From: Amyelois transitella
Taxonomy: Eukaryota > Arthropoda > Insecta > Lepidoptera > Pyralidae
Assembly: GCF_032362555.1 (NCBI RefSeq)
Contig: NC_083531.1
Span: 2,418,001-2,482,000, forward strand
Direction of reading: 5' to 3'
Length of the DNA: 64,000 bases
Below the pieces are notes generated by a model that had not been told where the DNA came from, ran no database searches, and saw only the letters and a program-made list of their open reading frames with translations. Position numbers and translations under genes: made by a program. Shown piece by piece: positions 3,001 to 29,465 of the stretch (the stretch's first letter is position 1; each line of letters opens with the position of its first letter).

Positions 3001-4497
3001 ATATCAAGGGTGAACATCAATACTTTGATAAAATTATCGATGTTATTAAAATATCTAGAAAATAATACTTTGTAAGTCTAGGCAATCAGAACTCTTCTGT
3101 TTTACATAGAACAGGTATATACCTATAAAAAAATTCAAAATCTAGACCAGAACTCTAACAATACTATCAGCATATCAAGGGTGAACATCAATACTTTGAT
3201 GAAATTATCAATGTTATTAAAACATCTAGAAAAAATATTCTGTAAACCAAGGCAATCAGAACTCTTCTGTTTTACAAAGAACAGGTATATACCTATATAA
3301 AAACATCAAAATCTAGACCAGAACTCTCATAATACTATCAGCATATCAAGGGTGAACATCAATACTTTGATGAAATTATCGATGTTATTAAAATATCTAG
3401 AAATAATATTCTGAAAACTTAGGCAATCAGAACTCTTCTGTTTTACATAGAACAGGAACAAACCTATACAAAAACATCAAAATCTAGACCAGAACTCTAA
3501 CAATACTATCAGCATATCAAGGGTGAACATCAATACTTTGATGAAATTATCGATGTTAATACAACATCTAAAAAAAAAAATATTTTCTAAGTCTAGGCAA
3601 TCAGAACTCTTCTGTTTTACATAGAACAGGTATATATCTATACACAAACAGAAAAATCTGATCCAGAACTCTCATATTACTATCAGCATATCAAGGGTGA
3701 ACATCAATACTTTGATGAAATTATCGATGTTATTAAAATATCTAGAAAAAAAATACTTTGTAAGTCTAGGCAATCAGAACTCTTCTGTTTTACATAGAAC
3801 AGGTATATACCTATACAAAAACATCAAAACCTAGACCAGAACTCTTACAATACTATCAGCATATCAAGGGTGAACATCAATACTTTGATGAAATTATCGA
3901 TGTTATTAAAACATTTAGAAAAAAAATACTTTGTAAATCTAGGCAATTAGAACTCTTCCGTTTTACAAAGAACAGGTACATTCCTATACAAAAACATCAA
4001 AACCTAGACCAGAACTCTTACAATACTATCAGCATATCAAGGGTGAACATCAATACTTTGATGAAATTATCGATGTTATTAAAACATCTAAAAAAAAAAA
4101 TATTCTGTAAGTCAAGGCAATCAGAACTCTTCTGTTTTACATAGAACAGGTATAAACCTATACAAAAACATCAAAATCTAGACCAGAACTCTCATAAAAC
4201 TATCAGCATATCAAGGGTGAAATTCAATACTTTAATGTAATTATCGATGTTATTAAAACATCTAGAAAAAAAATATTCTGTAAGCCAAGGCAATCAGAAC
4301 TCTTCTGTTTTACATAGAACAGGAATATACCTATACAAAAACATCAAAATCTAGACCAGAACTCTAACAATACTATCAGCATATCAAGGGTGAACATCAA
4401 TACTTTGATGAAATTATCGATGTTAATTCAACATCTAGAAAAAAAAAATATTTTGTAAGTCTAGGTAATCAGAACTCTTCTGTTTTACAAAGAACTG
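1..4497 (+). repeat. Satellite array, direct arm (about 173-bp monomers)
   Basis: Head-to-tail monomers follow each other at 171-175 bp, measured from successive copies of the motif CATATCAAGG (61, 232, 407, 580). Roughly 26 units fit in this arm and the array runs off the left edge. A core containing 'tatcagcatatcaaggg' and the small dyad 'catcaatactttgatg' is nearly invariant, while the A-run before 'atattttgtaag' and the 'tatacctatacaa' stretch vary. Distinctive variants recur far apart (a 'ctgaaaacttagg' unit near 995 and again near 3410), which indicates higher-order repeats. The short open frames in it are the same satellite phrase repeated and are not genes. Confidence 0.97.
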
Positions 4498-7400: not shown

Positions 7401-8203
7401 TCTGATTGCCTTGGCTTACAGAATATTTTTTTTCTAGATGTTTTAATAACATCGATAATTACATTAAAGTATTGAATTTCACCCTTGATATGCTGATAGT
7501 TTTATGAGAGTTCTGGTCTAGATTTTGATGTTTTTGTATAGGTTTATACCTGTTCTATGTAAAACAGAAGAGTTCTGATTGCCTTGACTTACAGAATATT
7601 TTTTTTTTTAGATGTTTTAATATCATCGATAATTTCATCAAAGTATTGATGTTCACCCTTGATATGCTGATAGTATTGTAAGAGTTCTGGTCTAGGTTTT
7701 GATGTTTTTGTATAGGAATGTACCTGTTCTTTGTAAAACGGAAGAGTTCTAATTGCCTAGATTTACAAAGTATTTTTTTTCTAAATGTTTTAATAACATC
7801 GATAATTTCATCAAAGTATTGATGTTCACCCTTGATATGCTGATAGTATTGTAAGAGTTCTGGTCTAGGTTTTGATGTTTTTGTATAGGTATATACCTGT
7901 TCTTTGTAAAACAGAAGAGTTCTGATTGCCTTGACTTACAGAATATTTTTTTTCTAGATGTTTTAATAACATCGATAATTTCATCAAAGTATTGATGTTC
8001 ACCCTTGATATGCTGATAGTATTGTTAGAGTTCTGGTCTAGATTTTGATGTTTGTGTATAGGTATATACCTGTTCTATGTAAAACAGAAGAGTTCTGATT
8101 GCCTAGACTTAGAAAATATTTTTTTTCTAGATGTTTTACAAACATCGGTAATTTCATCAAAGTACTTATATGGTGATAGTATTGTGAGAGATTGATGTTT
8201 CTG
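4498..8203 (-). repeat. Satellite array, inverted arm
   Basis: The same monomer continues on the other strand after a switch near 4497, for about 21 units. Blocks are near-identical reverse complements of parts of the direct arm but in shuffled order: about 4508-5100 matches 900-1494, 5690-6070 matches 3200-3600, 6080-6300 matches 30-250, and 7400-8130 matches 3570-4300. The last unit is truncated and decays after 8160. Confidence 0.95.
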
Positions 8204-10404: not shown

Positions 10405-13400
10405 TCACAATTTAACCCTCCTTTTTTTGACAGGAGACAAAACGACATCCACACATTCCCTAGTGGACTCACTCAGAACATATTCATTAGGAAAACCTAT
10501 CACTTTGTTTGGTTGAAAATGATTCACGAAATATATCAATTCACTTCGACTAGAATGAGTACTGAAGCATACACTCATTTTGTTGCCTGCGATTTTTTCC
10601 AAAGGTATATCTTCAATTTTGTACCCGTTCCATTTCATAGCAGACAGGCGTATAGTTAGAAATATATATTTATGACGAAACGGTATTTCACAATTTCTGT
10701 GATCCGAGGAATTGAAAGCGCAGTTGTGAATGTCTATGAGGTTCTTGTCGTTCGTTACGCCTGGTAGGGCTTTCATTTTGCTGAAACACAAATAAAACAT
10801 GCATAGATAAATGTTATAACGTCTTTATCCCTTACCGGGTAGACAGAGTCGACAGTCACGCGAAGACATAAAAGGCATGGCGTAATGATGGAATTGAGAT
10901 CCAAATTGCGACAGGTTGCTAGCCCATCGCCTAAAAGAAGAATCTCAAGTGTACATACCTCTCCTTTAGTCGCCTTTAGCGAAATATTTTTAAGTGCTTC
11001 AAATCTCAACCAGTACTTCAGTAATTTCGAGAAGTTAAATTAATGTTACTACTTTAACGCCATCTATTGGAAAAAATTGGGTAATAGATGGCGCTAACAG
11101 TCATCGGATATCGTCGGTAAAACTAAACACGTCCAATTCTCTCATGATTTCATTTTATTTGCATATAACAATAAACAGAAAATATATGTATTTTTATTCT
11201 TTTGTTTGTAACAAATAAACTCAAAAACTACTCTACCTTTTTTCATTAATATTTGTCACAGAGACAGGTAAACGACTCTGAAAAAACATAGGCAACTCCC
11301 TTAGAAATTCTCAAGGGACTGAATCCCCGCGAAAAAGCTAGTACTCTATTTATAAAATTTGTTACATACTTCTTACCATCGTCATCGCCCACAAAATATG
11401 TAGAAAATATTTTAACTTATGAGAAATTACTATTAAAAATTTTTGTTCTCTATCTCGATCTTACCTGTATAAAGACCACTTCGCGTCCACCACATAGACT
11501 TGCCTACCCAATTTTTCAAAAATATCATTAAACACACATTCATATCCATATTTAGCAGGAGTTTCCAAAGCTACTTTGAACTCGTCACCTCTCTCCAGCC
11601 AGTATTTTATTTCTCTGAGCATATAGTCTATGCTCTCTGACCTTCTTGGCAAGTCCTCTTTGTCTATTGTCAGAAATGTGGTGTCCAAATATATCGTGTC
11701 TATATGAATTGGTTCATTACGATTATTTGAATTGTGTAGGTCACGAATTTTTTTAACATCATTTTGTGTATACCTGTAATTATAAATAAATAGGCATGAT
11801 GACTGATTCATTCAAAACTGGAACGGATGAGACGGACTGGACGGCCTCTGTGGCGCAGCGGAAGTATGCTTGTCTGTGACACCGGAGGTCCCGGGTTCAA
11901 ATCCCGGCCAAGGCATGACGAGAAAAGAACTTTTTCTGATTGGCCTGGGTCTTTGATGTTTATCTATATAGGTATTTACTATAAAGTATAGTATTGTTGA
12001 GTTAGTATCTCGTAACACAAGTTTCGAACTTACTTCGAGGCTAACTCAATCAGTGTAATTTGTCCCGTATATATTTATTATTTATTTATTCATATTATCA
12101 CGTCATTATCCATGGGAAAGAAGAGATTGAGTGGTCACATTATTTTTAAAAGCTTTTATTTAGTTTGACTTGTATGTTATTTATATTAAAGAAAATGCTG
12201 CAGTGCAGTTTTTTACCGCTTCTTCTGCACTGACGCCTTGGAAGCGGCAGTAAACTTAGTTTTAAGTAATTTATTTGACGTCAACCAATGTTGTTAAACC
12301 ATACGTTTTGACAATTATTAAGCGATATGAAGTATCCTATAGTAATGAATAAAAATTTTGAATTTGAATTGGTGCCGGGAACCACACGGCACTTCACTTC
12401 TTTCACAAGTATCTCACCTAAAATCACCCGTATACAGTACAGTCTTTCTGTTTGTTTGAAACAAAATCATCGCTGAACCCAGACAATGCCCTGCTGGAAT
12501 CAGGGTGACACCAAGATGTACTTCCTCATATTTCTCAGTACTGGGCAACGTCAATATGTTATGTTCACCTGAAAATACATGGATATACAATTTTTATACA
12601 TATTTTTCCCTTTACATGGTAGGCAGAGTATTCAAAATACTGGAAGGCCATGTTCAACTGTTCGGTTTTATGATAGAATTGAGATTCAAATAATGACACA
12701 TTGCTAGCCCATTGCCTAAAAGAAGAACCCCAAGTACAAAAGCTTATTCCATTGGTCGTCTTTTACAACACCCATGGGAAAGAAATGGGGTGGTCCTTTA
12801 GCTTGAAGGCCATTATCAGTATTAATGGCTTACCGATAGAATTGAGATTCAGATAGTGACAGGTTGCTAGCCTATCACTTGAAAGAATCCTAAGTTTATA
12901 AGCTTTTCTTTTAACTTAATTCATTCAAGTTGACAGCCTCTGTGGAGCAGTGGAAGTCTCTTGCCTATGACACCGACAGGTTCGAATCCTGGTAGGTAAT
13001 TCAATCTGTGTAATGTCCCATATATATTTGTACTAGATGTGCCCGCAACTTCGTCCACTTGGAATGGTTATTTTGGGCATCATTGAAGCTCTCAAGGATG
13101 AATAATTTCCCCCAATTTTTTCCATTATTTATTTGCTCCTTATAGTTGCAGCATGATGTTATATAGGCTAAAGCCTTCCTCGATAAACAGCCTATTCAAT
13201 GCAAAAATAATTTTTCAATTCAAACCAGTAGTTATTGAGATTAGCACATTCAAACAAACAAACTTTTCTGCTTTATAATATTAGTAAAGATAAGCACATC
13301 AGGTACAGCCAGACCTCTTTTTCTTCTGGCTTGTGGAAGTTTAAGGTTGACTTATTAGTTAAGGACAATCTATATATATCATGATCGTTTTCCAGCTTGA

Positions 13401-13714
13401 TTAAACCAAAATGCAGAATGCATATACTTACCCATCTTTAAAGGCTTCACGAAAGGGGCTAAATCACTAAATTCATGTTCAAATATTTTGGCGGTAACAT
13501 CTGACATGTAAATAGATATTCTTTTTTTTGCGAGGAAGTTTGCAAATTCTGAATTCTTATTATCACCATATCTCACTGTGTTTAAGAGGCCCACAGTATG
13601 ATCCGTGTGTGCGTGACTGAGGAAATATGCCTGTGTATCATATTTCTCAAAATTATCTACGTATATTCCCGGAATTTCATCGATTTCTCCACAAAAACTA
13701 GAGTCGCAACCCAT
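10405..13714 (-). CDS. Artemis/SNM1-family nuclease (metallo-beta-lactamase plus beta-CASP)
   Basis: Four exons on the minus strand: 13432-13714, 12418-12568, 11465-11773 and 10405-10780, with introns of phase 1, 2 and 2 and GT-AG ends. They join to 372 residues plus stop. Residue 20 (D) and SHAHTDH at 33-39 are metal-binding motifs 1 and 2. H122 in [10 protein letters not shown] is motif 3 and D143 in YTGDFR motif 4. D175 in YLDTTF begins the beta-CASP part, [11 protein letters not shown] is motif B, and [11 protein letters not shown] carries the last conserved His. This is the order known in Artemis (DCLRE1C), which opens DNA hairpins and trims ends in non-homologous end joining in the nucleus. 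The length equals the catalytic core; the long C-terminal tail of vertebrate Artemis is absent. SNM1A/Apollo are the alternatives, but the short N-terminus beginning just before motif 1 and the YLDTTF phrase favour Artemis. Introns hold S1, S2 and S4 repeats. Confidence 0.92.
10812..10965 (-). repeat. S2 interspersed repeat (intron 3 of the Artemis-like gene)
   Basis: Reverse-oriented: 'cgggtagacagagtcgac', then 'cgacaggttgctagcccatc' and 'gcctaaaagaagaatc'. Lies between exons 3 and 4. Confidence 0.8.
11841..12091 (+). repeat. S1 tRNA-derived SINE
   Basis: The tRNA-like head 'ctctgtggcgcagcgg' (pol III A box) and 'gggttcaaatcccgg' (B box) is followed by the S1 body and a 'tatatttattatttattta' tail. 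It sits in intron 2 of the Artemis-like gene. Confidence 0.9.
12186..12370 (+). repeat. S4 interspersed repeat
   Basis: 'atgctgcagtgcag', 'cgcttcttctgcactgacgc' and 'ttgacgtcaacc' define this family; a scrap of S2 ('ggtgccgggaaccacacggc') follows it at 12370-12393. Confidence 0.75.
12418..12568 (-). CDS. Artemis-like exon 2 (motifs 3 and 4)
   Basis: A 151-bp exon between a 'ttttcag' acceptor (12569-12570) and a GTGAGA donor. It enters in phase 1 and leaves in phase 2, exactly joining exon 1 (...LKMG) to exon 3 (YTQNDVKK...). It encodes the stretch ending VLYTGDFR and supplies two metal ligands, so the gene would be dead without it. An S2 copy begins about 20 bp upstream of its acceptor. Confidence 0.92.
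12590..12797 (-). repeat. S2 interspersed repeat (intron 1 of the Artemis-like gene)
   Basis: Diverged minus-oriented copy with 'ttgctagcccattgcctaaa' and 'cccatgggaaagaaatgg'. Confidence 0.75.
12832..12912 (-). repeat. S2 fragment
   Basis: 'gtgacaggttgctagcctat' and flanks, minus orientation, inside the same intron as the copy before it. Confidence 0.7.
12933..13030 (+). repeat. S1 SINE with internal deletion
   Basis: tRNA-like head 'cctctgtggagcagtgg' and B box 'ggttcgaatcctgg' joined almost directly to the S1 end 'caatctgtgtaatgtccca'. Confidence 0.75.
13030..13292 (+). repeat. S3 interspersed repeat
   Basis: Begins 'actagatgtgcccgcaactt', contains 'ggcatcattgaagctctcaa' and ends 'tataatattagtaaagata'. 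Confidence 0.85.
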
Positions 13715-15710
13715 TATGTAGTTAGAAAAGAGAACAGCAGAATCTGTGTGTTATTAGTATTTTGATTACGTAAAAGTAATCTATGATTAACATAAACTGC
13801 AATATATAACAGCTTTCCAGACTTTAGATTGTAAAAATAAAAAAAAGAAGGAACCGCACAATAAGGAAAGGAAACCAAGAAGTAAACAAATAACACCGCT
13901 GAGTCCACCGCAGTTGGTTGAGCTGTTGTGTTGTGACATGCTAGTGACAACTGACATAGATGTCTTATAAAACGTAAAAGCGCCAAACTCAGGTTGCAAT
14001 CAGTGGTGCTGTGCATAAAGGCACGGAATAATATAACACATAATAGAAGCAGTATTTCCATTTAATTCATACGTATCTGTCCTGTCGTCAAACCTACTTA
14101 TAAAAATATATACTTAAAAGTCTAAAACAAAAAGATAGAACAAGCACACTAGGGAGGCGCTATTATTGGTTTTATTCTAGTTAATACACAACTATGACAA
14201 TAAAAATAAAGACAAGATTATTTTTAAAATATCATAGGTAACATTATCATGACGCAATTACATTTTATTACATTTGAGGTACATAAAAACAAAGCTTATA
14301 AACACTTCTGTACCTACTACTATAGATTTCATAAGACATTTGTAATCATTCAGCGACTGGCTGTAATGTAACAATTTGTGTTTGTATGTCGACTTGATCA
14401 AATATGATTATTCTATAAATAATCTGGGGAATTAGTTAACGATTCTGTTGTTAATGCACTCAAAGACAGAGCAGCAAGTAATTATGAAGAGGATTATGTC
14501 TCAGGAGTACATAACTTTGGTAACCCAGTTACGTTTCCATAACATTTCCATCAATGAACCGAACAATACTGTACATATTTCTATTAGTCTATGACTGGGA
14601 TTTTCCCGAAATACGTTTTTTGCTTGGTTGGCCCCGTTACCCTAACCCAGAGTTCTCATTCACCCCACAGACACTGATTTCAAACCCAAGCCCAACACAT
14701 CTATTTCTGTTGTGTATGTGTTTCGCAGTGTTCTGATTCCATCCACCATTTCCATTTGGTGGAATAAGTTATTCATTCGCCATAAATATATTTTTGTAGA
14801 TTTCTCAACTTAATGAAATTTCATTAATTTTCGTTGTACACGTTTTCGGACCGAATTGTTTTGATGCTGCAGTGTTTTTGTTACGTAATACAAAGTTATT
14901 ATTTATTGTGATAATGATAGAGTGTAGCTACATATTCTCCAAAACAATTATTTTCATGTCGGGTCAATGTTAATAAGTTTGCAAAAAGGTAAGTAATCTG
15001 ATTTCCCATTGCGCACTGTTCATACATTTTATCACCTTTTTCCCGGGGTGGTAGAAATAAGATCTTTTCCACTCGATATAAGCCCTTGACTTTAAGTTTC
15101 TTTGAATTTGGAAGAAGCGAAAGAAGTATGCAGAGATCGTGTGTAGAGGAAAGATGTAGTCTCTGCCTACCCCTTTGCGAAAGAGGCGTGAATATATATG
15201 TATCATCTTTAATTATTTACATTTATCAACTCACAACTTGTGTGCTGCAATGTCAGACATAGTTATAGTACAAAGCGTATGCGCAGATTTCCACAGTCTC
15301 ACACGAGTGCTCAACCATTGTTCATTTTTTAAATAATCTATGTAGGTAGGCTTGTAGCAATCGTTTAATTACCATTGAAGTTACCTTTGTTTTTAATTTT
15401 AGCCTGTTAGTCTTTCTTTAAACATGAATAAATATTAATTAAATTTTCATGTAAGCTCATTTGTAGTAGTAGTAGTATTATATTGGATTTTGATCTGAAA
15501 TTCTTCTTCTCATCTTCCCGTGCATATTGTTAAACTCAATGAAGGTGAATGCTTATAAATTTGGGATTCTTCTTTTATGTGGTGGGCTAGCATCCTTATG
15601 GCTTAATTCGTATGTAAAGTGCCGAGTACCAAAGTAACATCTGATTAACATAGTAAAAATGTATTTAATTGATGTGGAAAGTGCTTAAAATCTTTCAGAA
15701 TAACGCTACA
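13715..15710. other. Divergent intergenic region between the Artemis-like and zinc-finger genes
   Basis: The two genes are transcribed away from each other from this 2-kb stretch, so both promoters should lie here. I see no convincing coding exon. It contains an LTR-less retrotransposon scrap (15107-15205) and an S2 scrap at 15541-15605. A microsatellite-like 'gtagtagtagtagta' lies near 15463. Confidence 0.5.
15107..15205 (+). repeat. Non-LTR retrotransposon 3' scrap
   Basis: 'gaagcgaaagaagtatgcag', 'gatgtagtctctgcctaccc' and 'gaaagaggcgtga' match the end of the reverse-transcriptase frame better preserved at 37491-37833. Confidence 0.7.
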
Positions 15711-15969
15711 ATGGGTACGGAGATATCAAAAGAGGAAAAAAATAATTCAAGCAATACAGACCATGAAACTAAATATATACAATCAACAACAGATATAACA
15801 AAAATACCTAGTGTATTTGTGAATAAAGACTTATTGAACTTTGTGTTGACAGAGCAAAGAGTGACAAAGTATGATAGAAAAGTTTATGAGGTACACGGAC
15901 AGTTTTATGCAGAGGATGAGTATAATGAGTTTGGTGACATCACACCATTTAAAATTTATGCTCAAAAAG
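15711..15969 (+). CDS. Zinc-finger gene exon 1
   Basis: Encodes 86 residues, first acidic and Ser/Asn/Lys-rich, then a stretch with VTKYDRKVYEVHGQFY and no finger. Donor AAAG|GTGAGT, phase 1. The ATG at 15711 follows a possible 'ctttcag' acceptor (15692-15698), so the 5' UTR may be spliced. Confidence 0.6.
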
Positions 15970-18900
15970 GTGAGTTTTTTTAGAGGATGTAAAAAAAAAA
16001 ATCAAAAAACAAACCAGGGATGGAGGTGGGTGTAGGGTATGTAAGGGCAGATGGAATCGCATTGGACCGAAAATTAAATTGTTTTCAAAGTAGTTTCATA
16101 ATATAAAAAAATATAAAAAATAATACCGTGTGGTTCCCAGCACCAATACAAAAAAATAGGACCACTCCATCACTGTCCCATGGGTGTCGTAAAAGGCGAC
16201 TAAGGAAAGGCTTACAAATTTGGGATTCTTTTTTAGGCGATGGGCTAGCAACCTGTCACTATTTGAATCTCAATTCTATCAGTAAGCTAAATAGTTGAAC
16301 GTGGCCATTCAGTCATTTCAAGACTGTTAGCTATGTCTACCCTGCAAGGGATATAGATGAGACCATATGTATGTATAAATAATACTTGTAATATTTTTAT
16401 AAATACTATTAAAAATATTTACATCATCAGAGGGCCTTGCGAGAGGTACATTTAGTTTGGCGAAAAGAAATGTAAAACCTATAATAATAATATAAATATA
16501 TACGGGGCAAATTACACTGATTGAGTTAGCCTCTAAGTAAGTTCTTTGAGACTTGTGTTACGAGATACTAACTCAATGATACTATATTTTATAATAAATA
16601 CTTACATAGATAAACATCCAAGACCTAGGCCAATCAGAAAAAGTTATTTTCTCATCATGCCCTGGCTGGGATTCGAACCCGGGACCTCCAATGTCAGAGA
16701 CAAGCGTATTACCGCTGCGCCACAGAGGCCGTCATAACAAAACCTAGTCCACACACAGTTTGTATAAGTCAATCGAAAGAGTCACTTAATTGTTTACTTG
16801 GCAAAGTGGTTTTGTACTTCCCTTTAACCTGCAGGTCTCAAGTTCGTTTCCCGGCAGGTCCTGTTTGATAACAATATTTTTCTGATTGCCTCAGCTCTTA
16901 GATTTTAGAAGTTTGGTTATAGCTAATCTGGGTGATATTGTCCCATATTTATTGTTTATCATAGTTAAGCATATGATATTTTTATATTACAAATGTTGTA
17001 ATTATAGTTTCAGATTCCAAAAAGCTTGATATGGAAATAAAAATGTGTAACCATGGATATATAATTAATTCGACAATATTTCTAAGCATCGTTAATTTCC
17101 ACACATTAATGGTTGCTATTGATGATTATTTAAATTGTTTTGTTTGCGATAAAATTATTTGGAAAGAAGATGAGGATGATCATATCAGGAGTGATGAACA
17201 TCAGATTAACTTGGATAAATATCCGCCTTTGGAGAAATTTGGTTTAAGCATTATGAGACTGGTAAGTTAGTGAACTTAAATAAGAAAAGAAGAATAATAT
17301 TCTTCTTCCTTTGCTTCGATCACAGTTGCATCCTCAGCACTCTGGAGAGGAGCCCAGGGTATGCCTTTGACCATGTATCCTGGATTGGGTGAGCCTGGTT
17401 TTTACACAACCATCTGTCCTCCACAACCTTTGCAGGGGAACCTATCTCAGATGGGGTTGATCATGGTTACACATTCAGTTACCAGATTGTGCAGGTTCCC
17501 TCACGATGTTTTCAAGAGCTTTGGTTAGTATTAACACTAATGTACATAACTTCGATAATAGTCATTGGTACATGGTCGAGGTGTACCACATGTTTCTAGA
17601 AGAGTAGACGCAGCCCATAACTGAGACATTCGGCCCTGAAAGAAACTCTTAAAGTGATAGTGAGCGTGAAAGGTGGAGAACATGTGAATACGTAGTAAGA
17701 AGTTACTGCATCTCTTCGTCTTCCACAACCTATTTTTTTACCGTTATGATTCATATACACTCAACTAGCTGTGACCGCGACTTCGTCCGCGTGGAATCGT
17801 TATTTTGGGCATCATTGAAGCCCTCAAGGATGAATAATTCCCCCGTTTTTTTTTCACATTTTCCATTATTTCTTCGCTCCTAATAGTTGCAGCGTGATGT
17901 TATATATCCTAAAGCCTTCCTCGATAAATGGTCTATTGAAAACAAAAATAACAGATAAAGTATACGAATACGAAATCAGTATTAATAGTCATAGCGAGTT
18001 CTAAAATAAGTGAGCGCCATCTATTAAGCTTTTATGTAACTAAATTGAACATCCACATTCATTGTGTTTTTTTATAAAATCAATAGACTGCAGTGTGTTT
18101 TTGTCATTAACGATATGTATAAAACAAAGTAGAAATTCTAGCTTAATCTTATCTAAAGTAAACTATTTAATTTAATTTTTTCTTTTTTAGCTTTATCTTA
18201 TCTAAATTAAATACTTTAATTTAAGTTTTGAAGCAATAATTGAAGTTTTTCAATTACATATATACATAACTTCTTTTATCCTTTATCAATTTTAATGAAA
18301 CAAAGTTTTGACAATGCACGTAAATACATCTGTGGAAGTCGTGTTCAAATCGCTCGAAGTAATAAATTATAAAAAATTCGCAAATTCGAAATAACAGTTA
18401 TATAACTCAGACAGACTAACAAAAATTACAAATATTTTTATTTATTTTTTGGTTTCATCTGTTTTTGGAAAGATATAATATACCTACTCGATTTGAACTG
18501 TTTTATTATATGTACCTCTGTTTTGATGAAATAAAATATTTAGAAGTTATAACAGAAGACTAGCTTTAACACGCAGCTTCGCCCGCGCGGTTTTAGCGCC
18601 GACAACTACAAAAAGAGTACAGTTTTTTTTTGCAAATCCCACGGGATCTATAATTTTTACCGGGATGAAAGATGCCTATGTCCTTCTCGAGACTCTTAAT
18701 CCACATGTTTCTTACGAATATACATAAAAACTACTGATTTCCACGAAAAATACATACATATAATCACGTCTATATCTCTTGCGGGGTAGACAGAGCCAAC
18801 AGCCTTCAAAAGACTGAAAGGCTACGTTCAGCTGTTTGGCTTAATGATAAATAATAAATAAATAAATGTATACGGGACAAATTACACAGATTGAGTTAGC

Positions 18901-21900
18901 CTCGATGTAAGTTCGAGACTTGTGTTACGAGATACTAATTCAACGATACTATATTTTATAATAAATACTTGTATAGATAAACATCCAAGACCCCAGGCCA
19001 ATCAGAAAAAGATCTTTTCTCATCATGCCCTGACCGGGATTCGAACCCGGGACCTCCGGTGTCACAGACAAGCGTACTACCGCTGCGCCACAGAGGCCGT
19101 CAAATGATATAAATGATAGAATTGAGATTCAAATAGTGACAGGTTGCTAGCCCATCGCCTAAAAGAAAAATTCCAAGTCTTATAAAGACTATCCCTTAGT
19201 CGCTTTTAACAACATCCACGGGAAAGAGATAGTCCTATTCCTTTTTTTTTATTGGTGCATTTAAATATATAAAAGCGAAAAACATTCACTCACTCATTCA
19301 CTCACTCACCAATCACGAAATCTTAATTGGACCAATACCTACGTGTAATTTTGTAGGAAGGTAGATTATTAGTAGGAGACGTGTATCAAGAAACGATTTT
19401 TGGAAATTCAATCCCTAATTGTATTAACTTTCTTCTTGATATCAGCCGCTGTTTTACAGTTAAAATCTAGAATTGGAATTTGGTATAGTCGCCTTTTACG
19501 GCATCCATGGGAAAGAGATAGAGTGGTCCTATTCTTTTTTCTATTGCTTCCCGGCACCACCACACGGCGCTATTGTAATTTTCACGAAATTCAACACAGA
19601 TATAGGAGAGCCCCGCGCAAAAGTAAGTTACCATAAAATATGCGAAATTTCAAGAAGATTAAGTCTCCTTGGGGTAAACAAAATTACTTCCGCGATATTG
19701 TTTGATTGATGTTTATAACGTAAATATTGTCTCTCAGAAAAACGAACACGGCCATTGTGGCGTTTGCAATACAGTATTGCATAAAAACTATCTAGAAACC
19801 CATTCGGAAGAGGGAAGTCACTGTGATAAACAGACGATAGCATCTCTAAATGCTACTCGTACTACGAAGCGGCATAAAAAAGTAAGACGAAAAAAGAAAA
19901 AAGGCGGAAAGCAAAACAATGATAATGCTACGGATATTAAGAATACTGATACAAATTTAATCAATAATAATGTTATGTCGATAATGGAAATCCAGAATGA
20001 TGATAAAAAAATAAATAACGACGAAAAAACAACAAGAGCAGAGATGAACAATAATGATACGAATAATGAGGAAGCAGCACTTACAGAAATCGAGAATAAT
20101 GATGACAATGCAAATGGAAATAATGATTGTGCAATGAATAAAGAAATAAATAATGATGAATCATACGAAAATACATTAATGAAATCCACAGTTTCTGTTA
20201 AAGTTCTGAATAATGTTCTAGAAATGTCATATTATACTTGGAATATGATTTGTATTAGTAAAGCATCTAAAAGTAATACATTTTATTGTATGGCTTGCAA
20301 GATTGCCAATCAATTAGAAAAAATTGAAAATCATATCGTTGAAAAAGTGCATGATGATAATTTGAAAAGATTTAAAATTAATCATATTTACAAAGATCAT
20401 GTTATTCGACAGGTAAGTTAATTTAAGCGGTTATTATATGACTAGCTGATGCCCGCACATTCGTTCGCGTGGCTGAACGATTTTTGATAATGAATCCTAT
20501 TCTATATTCCGTAATTCCTTCGTATAGCTGGACCATCATGGTTCTCCATCAATCGTCACATTTTTAAGATCATTTATATCTTCTATGACAGACAAAAAGC
20601 TCTGTATTCAAATTCAAATATTACTACTGTTTCCTCACCGCCTAATTTTAATTTCAAATAAATTAATTTGATGTAGGTATAGTTTTTTTTTATACTGTTT
20701 TATTATATGTTTTTAATGAAAAGTTGCAATTTTATTTCAGGATGACAAGTTCAGTCACTGTGGTACATGCAATACTGTACATTTTTTGAGCGGAATCGAC
20801 GAACATATTAGTAAAATGCATAAAAGTAAGAAAGCAGTTGCAGAACCACTGAGTTCACCTGAATCCCATTTAGGAAATAAACAAATTCTGAAAGATAAAT
20901 GTCTTCTTTCCGAAACCAGAAATAAAAATAATGAAAAAACAAATATAGATGCAAACATTAATGATAAAATAAATGCAATCATTAATGAAAGACATTTCGT
21001 GATTTTATGCGGATATAAAATCAATATTTCATTGATGTCTCTTCACGTTATTTTTCGTTATGTGAACGGATTCTATTGTGGACTGTGCAGAATTAATTTT
21101 CCATTCTTTTATATACAAGTTCATATATGTAATCCTATGCATTTACTTTTGTTGAAATCTGTACCGGCGTTGCCTCAATATGGCTATAATTATATAAGAT
21201 TGGTAAGTATTTTTTTCTATTAAATAGTCGTTGCTCTGCAAGGGAAGAAAAAGTCGCGCGTGTAAAGAAAGTTGATAAAAAAGACTGACTTGGGTTAACT
21301 TAAAATTATATTAAGAGCCATTTCACACGTTTTAACAGTGCAGCCCTTATTTAAGTTACATAATTTTATCCAAAACTAAGACGAACATTATAAATGTTCA
21401 ACTTACATCAAATTACTAGATAATATTATAATCGATTTAATGAGCTAAGACAACTGGGTTTATTATGCAGTTTTGTTGACATGTGTCAAAAATCTTCAAA
21501 AATTGCATTAAGTAATACTTAAGCGCTCCCTAACGTACCTTTATTTTATCTCGGACGTTTCGAATCATGTAATAATCATGTCGCCGAGCGACTTTTCAGA
21601 AGATAAAATAAAGTTACGTAACGTTTAATACCTGTATTATTTATATATAGTATCATGCAACGCGTAAGTTTAAAATCAGTCATACGGTACATGGATGTAT
21701 AAATGTTGCCAACAGTTTTTTTTTGTACAGGTCAATGGGTTACCGCATTGTGGCATTTGCCATTGTGTTGTACAACCAGACTTACTGTTGCACCACATTC
21801 AGAACGCAGGTCATGTAATATTGACCAACTTAGCTCTTGGCAAGGCTATGTTACAGAATTTTCCAACTGCTGCTGGAATAGAGACAAGACTAAATAACGA

Positions 21901-24900
21901 TGTAGCAAACATAAATAACGATGTTGCAAACATAAACAATGACAATGAAAATATAAATAATGATGTTGGAAACATAAATAATGATGTTGCAAACATAAAT
22001 AATGACGATGAAAATATAAATAATGATGTTAGAAACATAAATAATGATGTTGATAACATAAATAATGTTGTTGCGAATAAAATTGACGATATTTCTAAAC
22101 CAAGCAGCGATTTTTTAAATGATAACAATAACGTTTCTAATATGAATAATGATGCCACAACTATTAACAACGATGAAATTGAAAATACACAGACTTCGTC
22201 AGTTGACGATGGAAATATAGTGAATGATGTTTTGGTTGAAAAAACAAATGAATCAGGTTTAGCCGAGAAATTCTCAAATAAAGACAGCAAAATTGATTCA
22301 GCAGATGTTTTTGAAATAGAAGTTGCTTTAGGTAGATCTAAAATTACATTAATGTCCTACCACGCTATGGTGCCTAAAGGCGACGGAGATAGACATTGCT
22401 TTCTTTGTAGAAAAAATGTGGAATACGATCAGGTGAAAAATCATATTGATAGTGATTTGCATATGGAAAATATGAAGAAACACAAATTTTTAATTGAATA
22501 TGGCGAAAATTTTATTAGACAGGTGAATAGTTAGCTCAATCACATATATATGGTATCGCCTCATGTTTTATATGTTAAGTTACTTTTTTGGCGACGGGCT
22601 AGCAACCTATCACTAATCTCAATTCTTATTATTAAGCCATAAAGATAATTATGGCATTTCAATCTTTGCGAGAATGTCTGCTCTGACAACCCCGCAAGGG
22701 ATATGGACGTGATTAATTGTATGTATGTACTTATATATTGTTCTTCTATGTTTTGCTATATAAGTATTTATTTTATTTAAAATATAGAATCGTTGAGTTA
22801 CTATTTCGAGGCTTACTTATGTGTGTAATTTGTTGCCATATGTATTTATTTATTTAACTCATTAAATAGTCATTGGTAAGTAGTCACATGTAAAGGAAGT
22901 ATCAAATAAAACTTCAACATTTTCATTTTCAGAATACTTTATTGTACCACTGTGCGTTTTGCAACACAATATTGAGACGCGCTGATTTTAAAGCGCACTT
23001 AAACTGTACGTCACATGAAAATAACAAGAAATTAATGTCATCATTTAAAAAGAAGCAATTAAAAAAATATATATGTAAAGCCTACGAAAAGCAAAAAGAG
23101 TGCATATTCTTCCGCGAAAAGGAGACAGATATAAAAGTTACTCTGTCACTTTGTAAAACAAATGATGAATCTATAGAAATTTTAAAGCAAAACGAGTTTG
23201 ATTTACCGCGCAAAAATGATATAGAGACAAAATCGAACGCGTCATCTTCTACCACAAATACTGAACCCAACGAAAATTTGAAGAAAACCCAGACTTATTC
23301 ATCGTGCCTAAAGGCATTGATGTTTACAGACAGTCTTTCAACTTCCGCCACAAATGTTAATTCGAATGAAAATTCCAAACAAAGCGGGTCTAATTTATCG
23401 TGCGAAAAAGAATCACAGATTATAATAGACAGTCTGTCAACTTTTATCACAGATGTTGAATCCAATGAATGCGAAAAGGTATCAGAAATTGTAGACAGTC
23501 TCTCAACTTCTACCACAGATGATTCTAAAGAAAATTTGAAGCATAGCGAGTTTAAATTATCCCGCCAACAATTTGACATTGAAGACTGTATGTCAACGTC
23601 AAATAAAAAATTAAAACAAAAAGAATCTTTATTCTTCCATAAAAATGAACCAGAGGTCAACGCGAGCGTGTCTTCGTCCACACAGCTTATGTCGAATGTA
23701 AATTTTAAAAAGAGGAAGCTAGTGATATTGAAAGGTTACAATTTAAAATACGCATTGAATTGGGAGGCGTGGCATGCGATTTCCAAAGTTAGAAATACTT
23801 ACCAAAGATGTTCACATAAATGCTTATTATGCAGGGACCTTTTAAATAATAAGAAAGATATATATGTTGCAGTCAAAACTCTTAACCAGTCAAAAGTACT
23901 TTTGACTAGCAACAAAAAAGCTTTTTGGGTGGTTTACAAAAAAAATACCTAACACTCGAAGGGTGATCGCTCGCTGCGCTCGCGATCACCCTTCGAACCT
24001 ATCACATGCATGTCGCGTCTGAGAACAATGTCCGAAAAGAATACGACTACTTATTTGTTAGTAAGAGCGCGTACCTGCTTCATGCAGCAACGGTCAAAAG
24101 TACTTTTAACTGATTTTGCTAGTCAATAGTACTTTTGACTGGTTAAGTGCTAGTCAATAGTACTTTTGACTGGTTAAGAGTTTTGACTGTGACATATATA
24201 ATCACGTTAATAGCGTAAAACATACGTGTAACTTAAGGCTGCCTTTTATGACTGAATATTTTCCTGATTTACTTAGACAGGTAATTATTATTTGTTTTAT
24301 TTTTACTTTTATGAAAAATGTGCCGTGTGGTTCCCGGCACCAATACAAAAAAGAATAGGACCACTCCATCTCTTTCCCATGGATGTCGTAAAAGGCGACT
24401 AAGGGATAGACTACATAAACTTGGGAGTCTTTTCTAGGCGATGGGCTAGCAACCAAGCTGCTTCGCTTAGTGATAGAATTGAGATTCAAATAGTGACAGG
24501 TTGCTAGCCTGTCGCCTAAAATAAGAATCCTAAGTTTATAAGACTTTCCCTTTAGTCGCCTCTTTCGACATCCATGGGAAAGAGATTGAGTGGTCCTATT
24601 ATTTTCCTACTGGTGCCGGAAACCACACTGCACATCTTTTAAATATTACAAACGACGAACGATGAATTCAGCCACCTAAAAAATAATATAGGTTTTTCGC
24701 AAATCCCACAGTAACTTATAGTTTTTACCATTTCTGGACGGCCTCTGTGGCGCAGTGGTAGTATACGCTTGTCTGTGACAACGGAGGTCCCGGGTTCGAA
24801 TCCCGGCCCGGTTTGACACACCATCTCAAATATATTCGCGCCATAAAAAAATTTACGACTTCTGTGGCGCAGTGGTAATACGCTTGTCTGCGACACCGGA

Positions 24901-25320
24901 GGTCCCGGGTTCGAATCCCGGCCAGGGTACAATGAGAAACGAACTTTCTCTGATTGGTCTGGGTCTTGGATGTTTATCTATATAAGTATTTATTATTATA
25001 TATAGTATCGTAGAGTTAGTATCTCGTCACACAAGTTTCGAACTTACTTCGAAGCTAACTCAATCTGTGTAATTTGTCCCGAATATATATAAAGATATGA
25101 ACTTTATATAATAGTTAATCGAAGGCTCTAATATGTATACTGTTTTCTATTACAGATCGACGAATCAACCATCAATTGTGTTGTATGCAACACTGAAATA
25201 TATAACATTTGTAATATAAATTGTCATGTGTCAGGTCAAAATCATAAAAATAATTTTAAAATGTTTTTGACCAATAGCTGTGACAAAACTGGCTGTTTAG
25301 AAGAAGTTTTAGTACTATGA
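15711..25320 (+). CDS. Multi-exon tandem zinc-finger protein, family not recognised
   Basis: Seven exons: 15711-15969, 17014-17261, 19738-20412, 20741-21202, 21731-22522, 22933-24280 (split by a MITE) and 25156-25320. The first intron is phase 1 and all others phase 0. Without the MITE the protein is 1204 residues; read through it, translation stops at 23950-23952. Exons 3 to 6 begin with an 'HC-x2-C' finger and exons 2 to 6 end with another, so each of the last five introns lies between two fingers of the form C-x2-C-x11-12-H-x5-H. That spacing is known from U1/matrin-type and JAZ-type fingers that bind RNA or DNA; a nucleic-acid role is inference. Exon centres are low complexity (Asn/Asp- or Ser-rich). 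The N-terminus MGTEIS fits a myristoylation pattern, weakly. An ATG at 15672 is the other possible start. Confidence 0.72.
16123..16378 (+). repeat. S2 interspersed repeat
   Basis: Near full length, from 'taccgtgtggttcccagc' to 'gaccatatgtatgtat', in intron 1 of the zinc-finger gene. Confidence 0.85.
16490..16734 (-). repeat. S1 tRNA-derived SINE
   Basis: Full length in reverse: tail 'ataaatatatacggggcaaa', B box 'gggattcgaacccgg', A box 'ccgctgcgccacagag'. Confidence 0.9.
17014..17261 (+). CDS. Zinc-finger gene exon 2 (one finger)
   Basis: Acceptor 'agtttcag', donor CTG|GTAAGT. Finger: CFVC-x11-H-IRSDE-H, preceded by the phrase FLSIVNFHTLM that recurs in altered form before the last finger of each following exon. 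Confidence 0.7.
17306..17530 (+). repeat. S5 interspersed repeat
   Basis: 'gagaggagcccagggtatgc' and 'catggttacacattcagtt' also occur at 54478-54680; otherwise unassigned. The following 17530-17760 shows no gene. Confidence 0.65.
17764..17945 (+). repeat. S3 interspersed repeat, 5' part
   Basis: 'ctagctgtgaccgcgacttc', 'gggcatcattgaagccctca' and 'cctcgataaatggtctatt'. Confidence 0.8.
18562..18750 (+). repeat. S3-like repeat variant
   Basis: 'cttcgcccgcgcggttttag', 'cgggatgaaagatgcctatg' and 'aaaaactactgatttcc' are typical of lepidopteran repeats; the family is not identified. The stretch 17946-18561 before it holds nothing I recognise. Confidence 0.5.
18752..19258 (-). repeat. S2 copy split by an S1 insertion
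   Basis: The S2 body runs from 'cacgtctatatctcttgcgg' to 'ggcttaatgata' (about 18850). It resumes after 19101 at 'gatagaattgagattcaaat' and ends 'tattggtgca'. 'aatgata' is duplicated at both sides of the inserted SINE. Confidence 0.85.
18851..19101 (-). repeat. S1 SINE nested in S2
   Basis: Full-length reverse copy ending 'gctgcgccacagaggccgtc', inserted in the older S2. Confidence 0.88.
19259..19483. repeat. S6 repeat block
   Basis: 'gtgtatcaagaaacgatttt' and 'gatatcagccgctgttttac' recur in the same order at 57480-57720, again directly after the same S2 variant. Confidence 0.7.
19484..19570 (-). repeat. S2 fragment
   Basis: 'tcgccttttacggcatccat' to 'cccggcaccaccacacggcg'. Confidence 0.75.
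19738..20412 (+). CDS. Zinc-finger gene exon 3 (two fingers)
   Basis: 225 residues, phase 0 at both ends. N-terminal finger HCGVC-x11-H-SEEGS-H, then a basic patch (RRKKKKGGK), an Asn/Asp-rich centre, and C-terminal finger CMAC-x11-H-IVEKV-H before DHVIRQ|GTAAGT. Confidence 0.8.
20413..20740 (+). other. Intron 3 of the zinc-finger gene
   Basis: Holds a short S3-like piece at 20441-20500 ('ctagctgatgcccgcacat'); nothing else recognised. Ends in a good 'tttatttcag' acceptor. Confidence 0.6.
20741..21202 (+). CDS. Zinc-finger gene exon 4 (two fingers)
   Basis: 154 residues, phase 0 at both ends, acceptor 'tttatttcag'. Fingers HCGTC-x11-H-ISKMH and CGLC-x11-H-ICNPM-H; ends YIRL|GTAAGT. The linker is shorter than in the neighbouring exons. 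Confidence 0.78.
21203..21730 (+). other. Intron 4 of the zinc-finger gene
   Basis: No repeat or conserved feature recognised. Confidence 0.5.
21731..22522 (+). CDS. Zinc-finger gene exon 5 (two fingers, INND repeats)
   Basis: 264 residues, phase 0 at both ends. Fingers HCGIC-x11-H-IQNAG-H and CFLC-x11-H-IDSDL-H. Between them lies a run of 7-residue units of the type NINNDVA (21-nt period) from about 21892 to 22075. Ends FIRQ|GTGAAT. Confidence 0.8.
21892..22075 (+). repeat. In-frame 21-nt tandem repeat (NINND units)
   Basis: About nine units of 21 nt around 'aacataaataatgatgtt', each giving a 7-residue NINND-containing unit, inside exon 5 of the zinc-finger gene. Repeat length is a multiple of three, so unit gain or loss keeps the frame. 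Confidence 0.85.
22578..22730 (+). repeat. S2 interspersed repeat, 3' part
   Basis: 'gcgacgggctagcaacctat' to 'gattaattgtatgtatgta', in intron 5 of the zinc-finger gene. Confidence 0.75.
22933..24280 (+). CDS. Zinc-finger gene exon 6, interrupted by a MITE
   Basis: Starts after 'tttcag' with finger HCAFC-x11-H-LNCTS-H and a Ser-rich centre with three imperfect DSLST-containing repeats. The last finger opens at CLLCRDLLNNKKDIY (to 23865) and closes at NHVNSVKH from 24200; the exon then ends at DLLRQ|GTAATT (24280). The 334 bp between are a transposon plus a duplicated 9-mer. Removing them restores a C-x2-C-x12-H-x5-H finger in frame. As it stands the frame stops at 23950-23952. Confidence 0.75.
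23870..24189. mobile_element. MITE inserted in zinc-finger exon 6
   Basis: Ends are inverted: CAGTCAAAACTCTTAACC at the left and its complement at the right, with further copies of 'agtcaaaagtacttttgact' subterminally. A 9-mer GATATATAT at 23857-23865 and GACATATAT at 24191-24199 may be the target duplication with one mismatch. A perfect palindrome lies at 23956-23995 (arms 'cgaagggtgatcgc'). No coding capacity of its own. Confidence 0.85.
24318..24458 (+). repeat. S2 interspersed repeat, 5' half
   Basis: 'gtgccgtgtggttcccggca' to 'ggcgatgggctagcaacc'; abuts an inverted copy. Confidence 0.85.
24470..24635 (-). repeat. S2 interspersed repeat, inverted neighbour
   Basis: 'gatagaattgagattcaaat' to 'gccggaaaccacactgcaca'; together with the previous copy it forms an inverted S2 pair in intron 6. 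Confidence 0.85.
24738..24815 (+). repeat. S1 SINE head, truncated
   Basis: A box 'ctctgtggcgcagtgg' and B box 'gggttcgaatcccgg', then 'gtttgacacaccatctcaaa', a leader also seen before the S1 copy at 35007. Confidence 0.85.
24855..25091 (+). repeat. S1 tRNA-derived SINE
   Basis: Full length, ends 'gtcccgaatatatata' just before the last zinc-finger exon. Confidence 0.9.
25156..25320 (+). CDS. Zinc-finger gene exon 7 (last, one finger)
   Basis: 54 residues and TGA. Finger CVVC-x12-H-VSGQN-H; acceptor 'ctattacag', phase 0. AATAAA at 25357-25362 follows the stop. Confidence 0.72.
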   Translation: MDESTINCVVCNTEIYNICNINCHVSGQNHKNNFKMFLTNSCDKTGCLEEVLVL

Positions 25321-25427
25321 TTTTGACATATCAAGATTTCTAATATTTACGTAAAAATAAAAATTAAGAAATTTTATAAAATTCTTAGTTAGTAAAGCAA
25401 GTGGTGATAACATTTTTTTATAACCTA

Positions 25428-25495: not shown

Positions 25496-28400
25496 CAGTG
25501 GCGTAGCGTAGTGGGGGCGGCAGGGGCGGCCCGCCCCGGGCGGCACTTTTACGGGGCGGCAAAATTTAACAATAAATAATAAAAATATTTTGTAAATATT
25601 TGAACCATTTTATATTTTTATCGCAACTACAAATTCGGACCGATTGAAAGGAGCTCGGAATTTTTCATTGCTTATTTTGTGACGAATTCGGGGAATCCTT
25701 TCTCTTTGAATGATATTTTGTAGCGACTGGCAACAACCTCTATACTGGTTTGTGGGAATTCCCCGTTTATGACTAACAATCAGCGAGAATGACTTCTATT
25801 ACATATATATTAAGTTCAATATAGCTTATTACACCTACGGGGAAGCCCCTTTAAAGTACGGGGAATTACGTGCTTTGACAAAGTTTGACAATTCAGAGAA
25901 AGTTTTATTGATGGATCGTCAGTTGTCCAATTCACATTGTCTCGTATTTTAACTATGTTACGCTTTCTAAATTGTGATTTTTGTGCAAATAAGTACGTGT
26001 AGTAGTGGTGAAATTATTGAACAACTTTTAACTGTGTGAGTATTAAATATTATATTTATCTAATTGTATGTTGGACTATCTGATATGTTTTTCAAACTTT
26101 AATTTTTTGAAGTGAAAACTTCTTTAGCGGCGTTGAGCACTTTTTCTGTAATGGGTATAAAATCTTAAACTCGCGTCAGGACACGTGACCCTGATCGAAA
26201 AAGCGTAAGACGACACGTGACCTGATGTGGGCAAGCGCAGCGGCGGAGGGCGAGGGGGGCCTGCTGTTATATAGCAACCCAAATCTAAAAAATTACAAAA
26301 ATCCTGATACTTTTGATACCAGGCCCTATTAAGGGTTAATAAATTTCCAAATATTTACTTACAAATATTCAAGTTTCTACCTGTTTATTAAGATCGAGTA
26401 AAAATTGCTTAGTTTTGTTTACAACTCTAACCTCTAACTTGTACATTTATCATTTAATATTTTTTTATTTTAGCATCAAAAATGAAAAGAGTAAAAGAAA
26501 GTGGGGCATCTTACCGTAATAAGAGAAGAGCTAAGTTGGAAAATATTAGAGCAAATGAAGGAGCTTTACTTAAATATGTGAAAAGTGTTATTCCTGAGAC
26601 GTCAGATTCCTCGTTAGGTTTAAATTCATCACAGACAACTTCAAACTCAGAACAAGCTGAAAAAATACAAGAACTTGACACTGTTCCTAAAGATCAAATT
26701 CCAACAACATCTACTGCATTAGTGTCTCCATCTGTATGTCCAGACATGGACATGCATAGTTCCGAAACAGAGATTGATACAACATCAGCATTGTCTCTTA
26801 TTCAATACCAAAATTTCGACGATATTGGAAAATGGCCTGAACACATAGACGACAATATCCGATTGCATCTCATTCAGCAAGGACAGGAAATTATTCAGCA
26901 TATTGATACTAATTTTGCTGAAATGTCAACAGTAACACGCTCAGATTCGTGCTCCTTAAAATCAAAAGGAGAGACAAGACGGCTTACTAAGGAATGGTTT
27001 TACCGTACATTGACTAACGGCGAAAAAGTTTTACGTACTTGGATGGCTTATTCTCCATCTAAAGCATCATTATTTTGCTTTTGTTGTCGTTTATTTGAGA
27101 ACGTAAATACACCGAATGGATCTAAATTTTGCTCATCTGATGGATTTAATACTTGGTGGAAATTAAATCCTAAGGTTTCAAGTCACGAATCAAGTGCACT
27201 ACACATCCAAAATTATTGTAAATGGAAGGAGTTGGAGAGCAGACTTCAAAAAGGACAGACTATTGACAAAAAAGAGCAAGACATAGTGGCAAAAGAAATA
27301 AAGAAATGGCAGGAAATTCTTATCAGAATGTTTGATATTATAAGATTCCTTGCCAAACAAAATTTGGCTTTACGTGGACATATAGAAAACGACACCAGTA
27401 CCAATAGAGGTAACTTTTTAGAATTGGTTAATTTAATTGCAAAATACGATCCTGTACTTCGTGAACATCTTGTAAGGTCTAAAATGTGTGGCAAAATTTC
27501 AATCACTTATATGTCACCACAAATACAAAACGAATTTATTGCCATTTTGGGAGATTATGTTCGCCAACATATCATCGGACAAATAAAAAAGGCTAAGTAT
27601 TATGCAATTATATTCGACAGCACTCCAGATCTTTCTCATAAAGATCAAACAAGTCAGGTATTAAGATACGTAGTAATTGAAAATCAGGAGGTAAAAGTAA
27701 TGGAATCTTTTATAGATTTTATTGAAACTAAAGACAAAACTGCTGAAGGAATTTCAAAGATGATTTTGGACAAGATTCAAGCTGATGGCCTAGATATAAG
27801 CAACTGTAGAGGCCAAGCATATGATAATGCTGCTGTTATGGCTGGAAAGTATTCAGGAGTTCAGCAAAGAATTCAAGAAATAAACCCTAAAGCTGAATTC
27901 GTACCTTGCTCAAATCATTCTTTAAACCTAGTTTGTTTACACGCTGCCTCAGTTGAGGTGGATTCAGTAACTTTTTTCGGCACTTTAGAACGTTGCTATT
28001 CATTTTTTTCCTCATCGACACATCGTTGGGAAGTTCTGATAGCAGCTACAGGCAAAAGCTTAAAAAGGGTTCAAGACACGCGGTGGAGTGCAAGAGGCGA
28101 TGCCGTAAATATGACATGGCATCATTACAAAGACATTCTCGTCACTTTGGAAAAACTGACAGAGGCAGGTGAAAGCTTAAACACTAGGACAGATGCAGGT
28201 GCTTTACTAGTTTCGATGCAGTCATTTTCCTTTCTTTGTTTTTTGGGCCTGTGGCAACCGGTGCTACATGAAGTGAATGATGCACAAAAATATTTACAAA
28301 CAAGAGGACTTGACATAAGATTGTGCGCTCAGAAAGTAAATGCTTTGCAGATGATATTGACAGAGAAAAGAGAGGAATGGGCAAATGGCGCTGTAGGTTA

Positions 28401-29465
28401 TGCAAAAGATATGTGTGAAGAACTTGGAATTTCCATAAAACCTCTGAGGCGCATAACAAGAAAGCATATTTTTGATGACGGAACTAGAGATGTTAACTTG
28501 TCTTGTGAAAATGAGTTGAGACGAAAGCTGTTTTCTTCGTTAGATAGAGTTATTGTAGAAATTCGTGAGCGTTTTCAACAGCTACAGAATTTAACGGATA
28601 AGTTTGCTTATCTAACGCCGGCTATATTATTAGATCCAGACAACACTGAATGTAATCTAGACTACGCATCTGACGAAATTGACGAGCAGGATTTCAAGCT
28701 GGAACGACTTCGACTGCGGACTTTCGTTGCTGCTACAGGCAACGAAAATAAATTGATTAATGCAGACTCACTTGAATTATTTAAATTTATTATTAAATCC
28801 AAGCTGGAAGATACTCTGCCCAATATTTTAATAATGTTCCGAATATTTTTTACAATTGCCATAAGCAATGCCAGCTGTGAGAGAAGTTTTTCAAAATTGA
28901 AATTAATTAAAAATTATTTAAGATCAACAATGGGTACTCTAAGACTAACTAATTTGGCTATTTTGTCTATTGAACAAGAGGTGTGTGATGCGATAGACAT
29001 TGACGGTGCAATAAAAGACTTTGCTCTTAAAAAAAGTAGACGTATAAATTTTTAATTGAAGACGGAAGTTTTGTTTTTAATTGTAACAAATACTCATATT
29101 ACTATTCAATAAAAATATAACATTGTAGTATCGTTCTAGTTCTAATTAAAAATTGATTTTATTTAATCTTGTCGATCATCAAGGTGTAATTAATCTTAAG
29201 TGATAGGTACCTAAGTTATATCAATGTATCTAAGTGGTTAAAGTAAAAGATTTTTTGTTTAATAAACGTGATTGTAAAACTTAAATAAACTTTTTTATTT
29301 AAAATCTAACCTGTATAATGCAAAATAATGATGACTGCTCTCGCCGAAAAGTTCTCTATAATTAATATATGTAATGTATAGTATACATTAAATTAAAATA
29401 CCTAAATAAGAGGGCGGCAAAATGGTTTTCCGCCCCGGGCAGCCGACACTCACGCTACGCCACTG
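25496..29465 (+). mobile_element. Complete hAT DNA transposon (3970 bp)
   Basis: Begins CAGTGGCGTAGCGTAG and ends with the complement of CAGTGGCGTAGCGTGAG. The imperfect inverted ends go on through G/C-rich 'gcccgccccgggcgg' blocks. Perfect 8-bp duplications flank it, the hAT hallmark. The leader 25570-26471 is non-coding, contains two CACGTGAC motifs (near 26181 and 26215) and ends in a 'ttttattttag' acceptor, so a 5' intron is likely. Intact ends, intact frame and perfect duplications point to a recent insertion. Confidence 0.95.
26482..29055 (+). CDS. hAT transposase (TTF-type finger, DUF4371, dimerisation domain)
   Basis: 857 residues, uninterrupted. A basic N-terminus (MKRVKESGASYRNKRRAK) precedes a TTF-type zinc finger at about 165-250 with CFCC at 199-202. 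The RNase-H-like core follows: IIFDSTPDL holds the first Asp (D379) and GQAYDNAAVM the second (D448), then the CSNHSLNLV zinc-like motif (476-484). The hAT C-terminal dimerisation region has SNASCERSFSKLK at about 795-807, with the conserved Ser-x-Glu-Arg. This arrangement is shared with the ZMYM1-like/'TTF-type' hAT transposases of animals. It acts in the nucleus, cutting at the element's ends. AATAAA at 29108-29113. Confidence 0.95.
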   Translation: MKRVKESGASYRNKRRAKLENIRANEGALLKYVKSVIPETSDSSLGLNSSQTTSNSEQAEKIQELDTVPKDQIPTTSTALVSPSVCPDMDMHSSETEIDTTSALSLIQYQNFDDIGKWPEHIDDNIRLHLIQQGQEIIQHIDTNFAEMSTVTRSDSCSLKSKGETRRLTKEWFYRTLTNGEKVLRTWMAYSPSKASLFCFCCRLFENVNTPNGSKFCSSDGFNTWWKLNPKVSSHESSALHIQNYCKWKELESRLQKGQTIDKKEQDIVAKEIKKWQEILIRMFDIIRFLAKQNLALRGHIENDTSTNRGNFLELVNLIAKYDPVLREHLVRSKMCGKISITYMSPQIQNEFIAILGDYVRQHIIGQIKKAKYYAIIFDSTPDLSHKDQTSQVLRYVVIENQEVKVMESFIDFIETKDKTAEGISKMILDKIQADGLDISNCRGQAYDNAAVMAGKYSGVQQRIQEINPKAEFVPCSNHSLNLVCLHAASVEVDSVTFFGTLERCYSFFSSSTHRWEVLIAATGKSLKRVQDTRWSARGDAVNMTWHHYKDILVTLEKLTEAGESLNTRTDAGALLVSMQSFSFLCFLGLWQPVLHEVNDAQKYLQTRGLDIRLCAQKVNALQMILTEKREEWANGAVGYAKDMCEELGISIKPLRRITRKHIFDDGTRDVNLSCENELRRKLFSSLDRVIVEIRERFQQLQNLTDKFAYLTPAILLDPDNTECNLDYASDEIDEQDFKLERLRLRTFVAATGNENKLINADSLELFKFIIKSKLEDTLPNILIMFRIFFTIAISNASCERSFSKLKLIKNYLRSTMGTLRLTNLAILSIEQEVCDAIDIDGAIKDFALKKSRRINF

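Follow-up and report, generated by a model that had tools for sequence, protein, structure and literature searches.

A candidate moth gene in which introns divide five pairs of putative U1-type zinc fingers at a constant spacing

Classical poly-C2H2 arrays are built of H-x3-H or H-x4-H zinc fingers joined by short linkers. JAZ (ZNF346) and dsRBP-ZFa carry several fingers on long linkers, a layout that resembles the gene analysed here, which lies at 15711-25320 on the forward strand of a 64,000-nucleotide stretch of Amyelois transitella DNA (NC_083531.1, positions 2,418,001 to 2,482,000; hereafter the window). U1/matrin-type C2H2 fingers are defined by C-x2-C-xn-H-x5-H spacing in PMC6488673, where the third finger of JAZ (ZF3) is described as contacting double-stranded RNA (dsRNA) through positively charged helix residues. 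Tandem CWCH2 pairs (Zic/Gli/Zap1) are given a mean linker of 11.8 residues, compared with 8.1 in general C2H2 sequences, in PMC2837044. The Amyelois gene shares the spacing of the U1/matrin fingers (ZMAT2, SF3A2, U1C, ZNF622) in eight of its nine contiguous fingers, as do JAZ and dsRBP-ZFa, but differs from the U1/matrin proteins in having five intron-split pairs with a fixed 26-residue linker. That linker, found in 5/5 pairs, together with H-x5-H in eight fingers and H-x4-H in one, also sets it apart from classical arrays. Like CWCH2 pairs, it uses two fingers as a unit with a longer than usual linker; unlike them, none of the nine fingers has tryptophan between its cysteines, the linker is 26 residues and H-x5-H predominates.

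The distance between fingers is fixed across all five introns: 26 residues separate the last histidine of an exon-end finger (B finger) from the first cysteine of the exon-start finger that follows (A finger), versus 85-268 residues inside exons. We consider it roughly 60% probable that the locus is a single protein-coding gene built by repeated tandem duplication of an intron-holding period, with a product carrying five two-finger modules. Open exons, splice signals, intron phases, the constant linker and two finger classes can all be read directly in the sequence. An ancestral period with one intron would have been duplicated repeatedly in tandem, yielding five modules, in each of which a 26-residue linker connects a B finger to a following A finger, and these modules would be joined by long, probably unstructured and fast-changing spacers.

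Each intron falls 19-20 residues after the B finger and 6-7 residues ahead of the first A-finger cysteine, so that any in-order joining of exons yields a linker of 26 or 27 residues. At the fifth junction, where a transposon interrupts the B finger, the two histidines are both found past its right end, and the linker can therefore be counted without joining the flanks. The four uninterrupted spliced pairs, to which the alignment was confined, align across 84-85 residues with one single-residue gap, while the spacing of the two fingers within exons 3, 4, 5 and 6 is 155, 85, 194 and 268 residues. This constancy across introns, as against free spacing inside exons, points to the B-then-A pair as the conserved unit and to the exon centres as spacers, as judged from sequence. 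Residues 29-178 of the exon 3 model fall below a predicted local distance difference test (pLDDT) score of 50, with finger islands on both sides. The original prediction had described the exon centres as unrelated low-complexity sequence; they are of low complexity and mostly unrelated, but among six spacer pairs only that of exons 3 and 5 clearly exceeded shuffled sequences in similarity (6 of 300 shuffles did as well), and exons 4 and 5 were borderline (27 of 300). The stretch preceding the B finger, the finger itself being shared, was alike in two of ten pairs (4-5 and 4-6).

The fingers are concentrated in this gene. The strict motif C-x2-C-x11,12-H-x5-H, counted in open frames of at least 40 amino acids, occurs eight times in the window, every time within the gene, compared with three occurrences in 40 simulated windows together. 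The nine contiguous fingers thus include eight with strict spacing and the H-x4-H finger that starts exon 4; the tenth, at the end of exon 6, is interrupted by an inverted-repeat transposon. The ten strict fingers originally proposed are accordingly reduced to eight, with one deviant and one split by an element that had gone unmentioned.

Seven exons can be joined by GT-AG introns (6/6), opening with an ATG at 15711 and closing with a TGA whose last base is 25320. Exon 1 (15711-15969) contains no finger, and its ATG is a possible start; the frame stays open upstream, where a further ATG and an acceptor-like CTTTCAG make an additional 5' exon possible. Exon 2 (17014-17261) ends in a B finger (17136-17201). 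Exon 3 (19738-20412) runs from an A finger (19756-19821) to a B finger (20287-20352), exon 4 (20741-21202) from its H-x4-H A finger (20759-20821) to a B finger (21077-21142), and exon 5 (21731-22522) from an A finger (21749-21814) through an Asn/Asp-rich spacer to a B finger (22397-22462). That spacer contains an in-frame tandem repeat at 21891-22073, whose 21-bp unit recurs 8.7 times under a higher-order period of 63 bp and whose product is rich in Asn and Asp. Exon 6 (22933-24280) begins with an A finger (22951-23016) and ends in the transposon-split B finger, and exon 7 (25156-25320) holds an A finger (25177-25245) and the stop codon, 36 bases past which lies AATAAA at 25356. All of these exons and the introns between them are on the forward strand. 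Introns 2 (17262-19737), 3 (20413-20740), 4 (21203-21730), 5 (22523-22932) and 6 (24281-25155) are in phase 0 and divide the finger pairs, bearing out the expectation of five successive phase-0 introns each between two fingers; intron 1 is in phase 1 and is not located between fingers.

We scored splice sites with generic weights. The six proposed donors rank 1, 2, 3, 6, 7 and 8 among 501 GT sites in the gene; the acceptors fare less well, at ranks 4, 5, 21, 39, 58 and 112 among 519. The open frames at exons 3, 5 and 6 (247, 286 and 352 amino acids) exceed the maximum of 184 in 60 simulated windows, and those at exons 1, 2, 4 and 7 (104, 97, 167 and 62) are below it.

The A and B fingers behave as two sets, as is predicted by repeated duplication of one A-spacer-B period. 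When nine fingers were divided into five and four, the true split was the best of 126 labelings. In held-out profile runs, from all of which the exon 6 B finger was left out, the withheld B finger was the best match outside the training rows in four of four runs and the withheld A finger in three of five, the A fingers of exons 5 and 7 being missing from the nine rows shown. The right half of the exon 6 B finger was found in the correct register, weakly, in two runs (E 0.38 and 0.13). Identity among copies is low, at 25-29% for three spliced pairs against the fourth, suggesting that the duplications are old or that the copies change fast. Collectively, these findings favor a repeated period, as the original prediction of one exon duplicated many times had it, and the linker constancy at 5/5 introns refines that proposal in that the module would be the finger pair rather than the exon.

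We next consider how the exon 6 insertion bears on the gene. A palindromic element resembling a miniature inverted-repeat transposable element (MITE) occupies 23859-24200 inside the B finger, with arms of 53 bp each (23859-23911 and 24148-24200; 50 of 53 positions alike), and introduces a stop codon into the exon 6 frame at 23950-23952. The insertion is about 340 bp long; its AT-rich ends permit either 334 or 340 bases, both of which leave the flanks in one frame. With 334 bases, the first cysteine lies 42 residues from the exon end, equal to the distance in the four intact exons, and the implied target duplication is ATATAT, a type that PMC2997013 records for one silkworm MITE family. Removal of the insertion by splicing was rejected because 23701-24280 contains no strong donor (the best scores 1.4, whereas the six proposed ones range from 4.65 to 8.9). 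Between the stop and the last exon junction downstream of it are 328 bases. By the usual rule, a stop that far before the last junction exposes the transcript to decay, as would be expected here. With one finger interrupted and a stop introduced by the transposon, this window probably carries a damaged allele, in which the fifth pair would be lost or the transcript degraded.

It is possible, though we doubt it, that the damage extends to the whole locus, such that the transposon marks a pseudogene whose other exons are open only because decay is recent. The split finger with its stop and the missing donor would suit lost function, as would the absence from exon 6 of the codon-position guanine-cytosine pattern seen in exons 1-5. 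The remaining exons are nonetheless open in the correct frames, the six donors fall within the best eight of 501, and the sequence on each side of the insertion retains finger residues that are correctly ordered and spaced.

A related but unlikely alternative is that the phase-0 exons are skippable cassettes that do not all enter one mRNA, giving a variable number of pairs and allowing damaged exon 6 to be skipped. Exons 3, 4 and 5 each have a length divisible by three and a phase-0 intron on either side, exon 6 is likewise flanked by phase-0 introns, and skipping would keep the frame and rebuild a pair from the B and A fingers of different exons with a linker of 26 or 27 residues. Returning to the preferred single-gene reading, a tentative extension that falls short of even odds is that the pair constitutes a hitherto undescribed domain with two fingers and some 75 residues, found only in intron-split form here, and that the gene acts as a frame-safe domain generator. 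Were this so, any exon duplication, loss or skipping would yield a whole domain, spacers could change at no cost, and a transposon in one exon would be tolerable through skipping. A domain-like pair whose intron position hardly varies among copies, with a linker of fixed length while the rest of each exon is free, offers a testable case of repeat-protein building by exon duplication. It would equally allow a test of whether a gene made of phase-0 cassettes can outlast a transposon insertion in one of them.

Comparison with solved structures and described families supports a U1/matrin-type fold for the B fingers and, more weakly, for the A fingers, on the basis of spacing, PDB profile matches and predicted structure. 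In hhalign comparisons against the U1 set, the B fingers reached 78% and the A fingers, which match this set poorly, 5%. In the profile search that had been suggested, a nine-finger profile matches ZMAT2 (E 1.9e-4); the gene's fingers also match ZNF622 by profile, whereas the GKKH that precedes the last histidine of ZMAT2 is absent from all nine. Three of the ten fingers were modelled, namely the B fingers of exons 5 and 3 and the A finger of exon 3. The exon 5 B finger is predicted as a hairpin (strands 31-33 and 38-40) followed by a helix broken between the histidines (42-49 and 52-60), as in U1/matrin fingers, and the exon 3 B finger as helices 193-200 and 203-211 at lower confidence; the exon 3 A finger shows a single low-confidence helix (16-25), with no break seen. 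Structure comparison with VIA-align, which covers one B finger, places its best superpositions on spliceosomal chains and JAZ ZF3 at rank 29.

The two-finger pair itself matches no Pfam family. Pfam also yielded no zinc-finger family for any of the nine single fingers, and exons 2-6 gave only weak Pfam matches, all under the curated cut-offs. A profile of the four spliced pairs found no solved protein with both fingers in order at E < 0.001; it matched a ZNF622 chain (E 5.5e-4) through the B part, twice. Viral contigs searched with the exon 5 B region, exon 3, exon 4 and the part of exon 6 ahead of the insertion returned 2, 17, 31 and 1 pattern matches, none confirmed, and the exon 5 B region returned 375 in bacterial and archaeal genome contigs, likewise none confirmed; as these collections hold viruses, bacteria and archaea and single-protein queries reach close relatives only, they are uninformative on the range among insects. 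We noticed no paper on such a gene among the matches listed from the open-licence literature, as judged from titles and the openings of abstracts, and a word search of the main text of a silkworm C2H2 survey (PMC6613534) found none of the words matrin, intron or duplication. PMC11837612 reports a zinc finger in 19 of the 217 orthogroups that first appear at the base of Lepidoptera; such a gene would thus have company, and this one could be among those orthogroups.

The finger spacing had also prompted the suggestion of an RNA- or dsRNA-binding role, which the charge of the fingers weakens. Counting charges crudely within predicted boundaries gave a net negative helix for five of the nine contiguous fingers and a net positive one for four, with a net positive loop between the histidines in one of nine. 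Of the three fingers used for comparison, two have positive loops (that of ZMAT2 and one from ZNF622) and the third, also from ZNF622, a neutral loop. The positive helix charge typical of the dsRNA-binding JAZ and ZFa proteins is therefore not conserved here, and because basic residues are mostly missing, dsRNA binding in general is not favored. A JAZ-like dsRNA-binding protein, for which the shared spacing and long linkers might speak, thus appears improbable. Under the five-module reading, the two fingers of a pair may instead act jointly on one ligand, and several pairs on a flexible chain may provide multivalent binding of an RNA-protein complex, through its RNA or its proteins. If the function is as proposed, U1-type fingers would be used multivalently outside the spliceosome.

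That single fingers were duplicated separately and came to be paired across introns by accident is very improbable, since the low copy identity and the failure of other A fingers to recover those of exons 5 and 7 would fit such a history, but the separation of A and B sets and the identical linker at every junction would not.

The remainder of the window holds several further features. At positions 1-8190 a 173-bp satellite is arrayed twice, head to head (26.0 and 21.2 copies of the unit); together the arrays make up a large inverted repeat centred near 4500, with an identity of about 90%. At 10408-13747 on the reverse strand, and thus oriented head to head with the zinc-finger gene, are exons of a metallo-beta-lactamase gene of the DNA-repair type; 10408-10824 matches DRMBL (E 4.5e-7), and the other two pieces tested gave no family match. 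This gene may be Artemis/SNM1-like. Just downstream of the zinc-finger gene, a hAT transposase frame of 865 residues is open at 26458-29055 on the forward strand; it has DUF4371 and hAT dimerisation domains and no clear terminal repeats within 700 bases on either side. Outside the zinc-finger gene, the tandem and palindromic repeats of the window are unrelated to it. A mariner-type transposase frame of 395 residues is open at 43356-44543 on the reverse strand (Transposase_1, E 1e-18). A dispersed repeat resembling a short interspersed nuclear element, with a tRNA-like part, occurs in introns of the zinc-finger gene (16481-16734, 18851-19102 and 24855-25091) and elsewhere in the window (11840-12097, 35002-35260 and 52219-52464), and four tRNA matches exceed the Rfam threshold, at 11844, 19026, 35010 and 52227.
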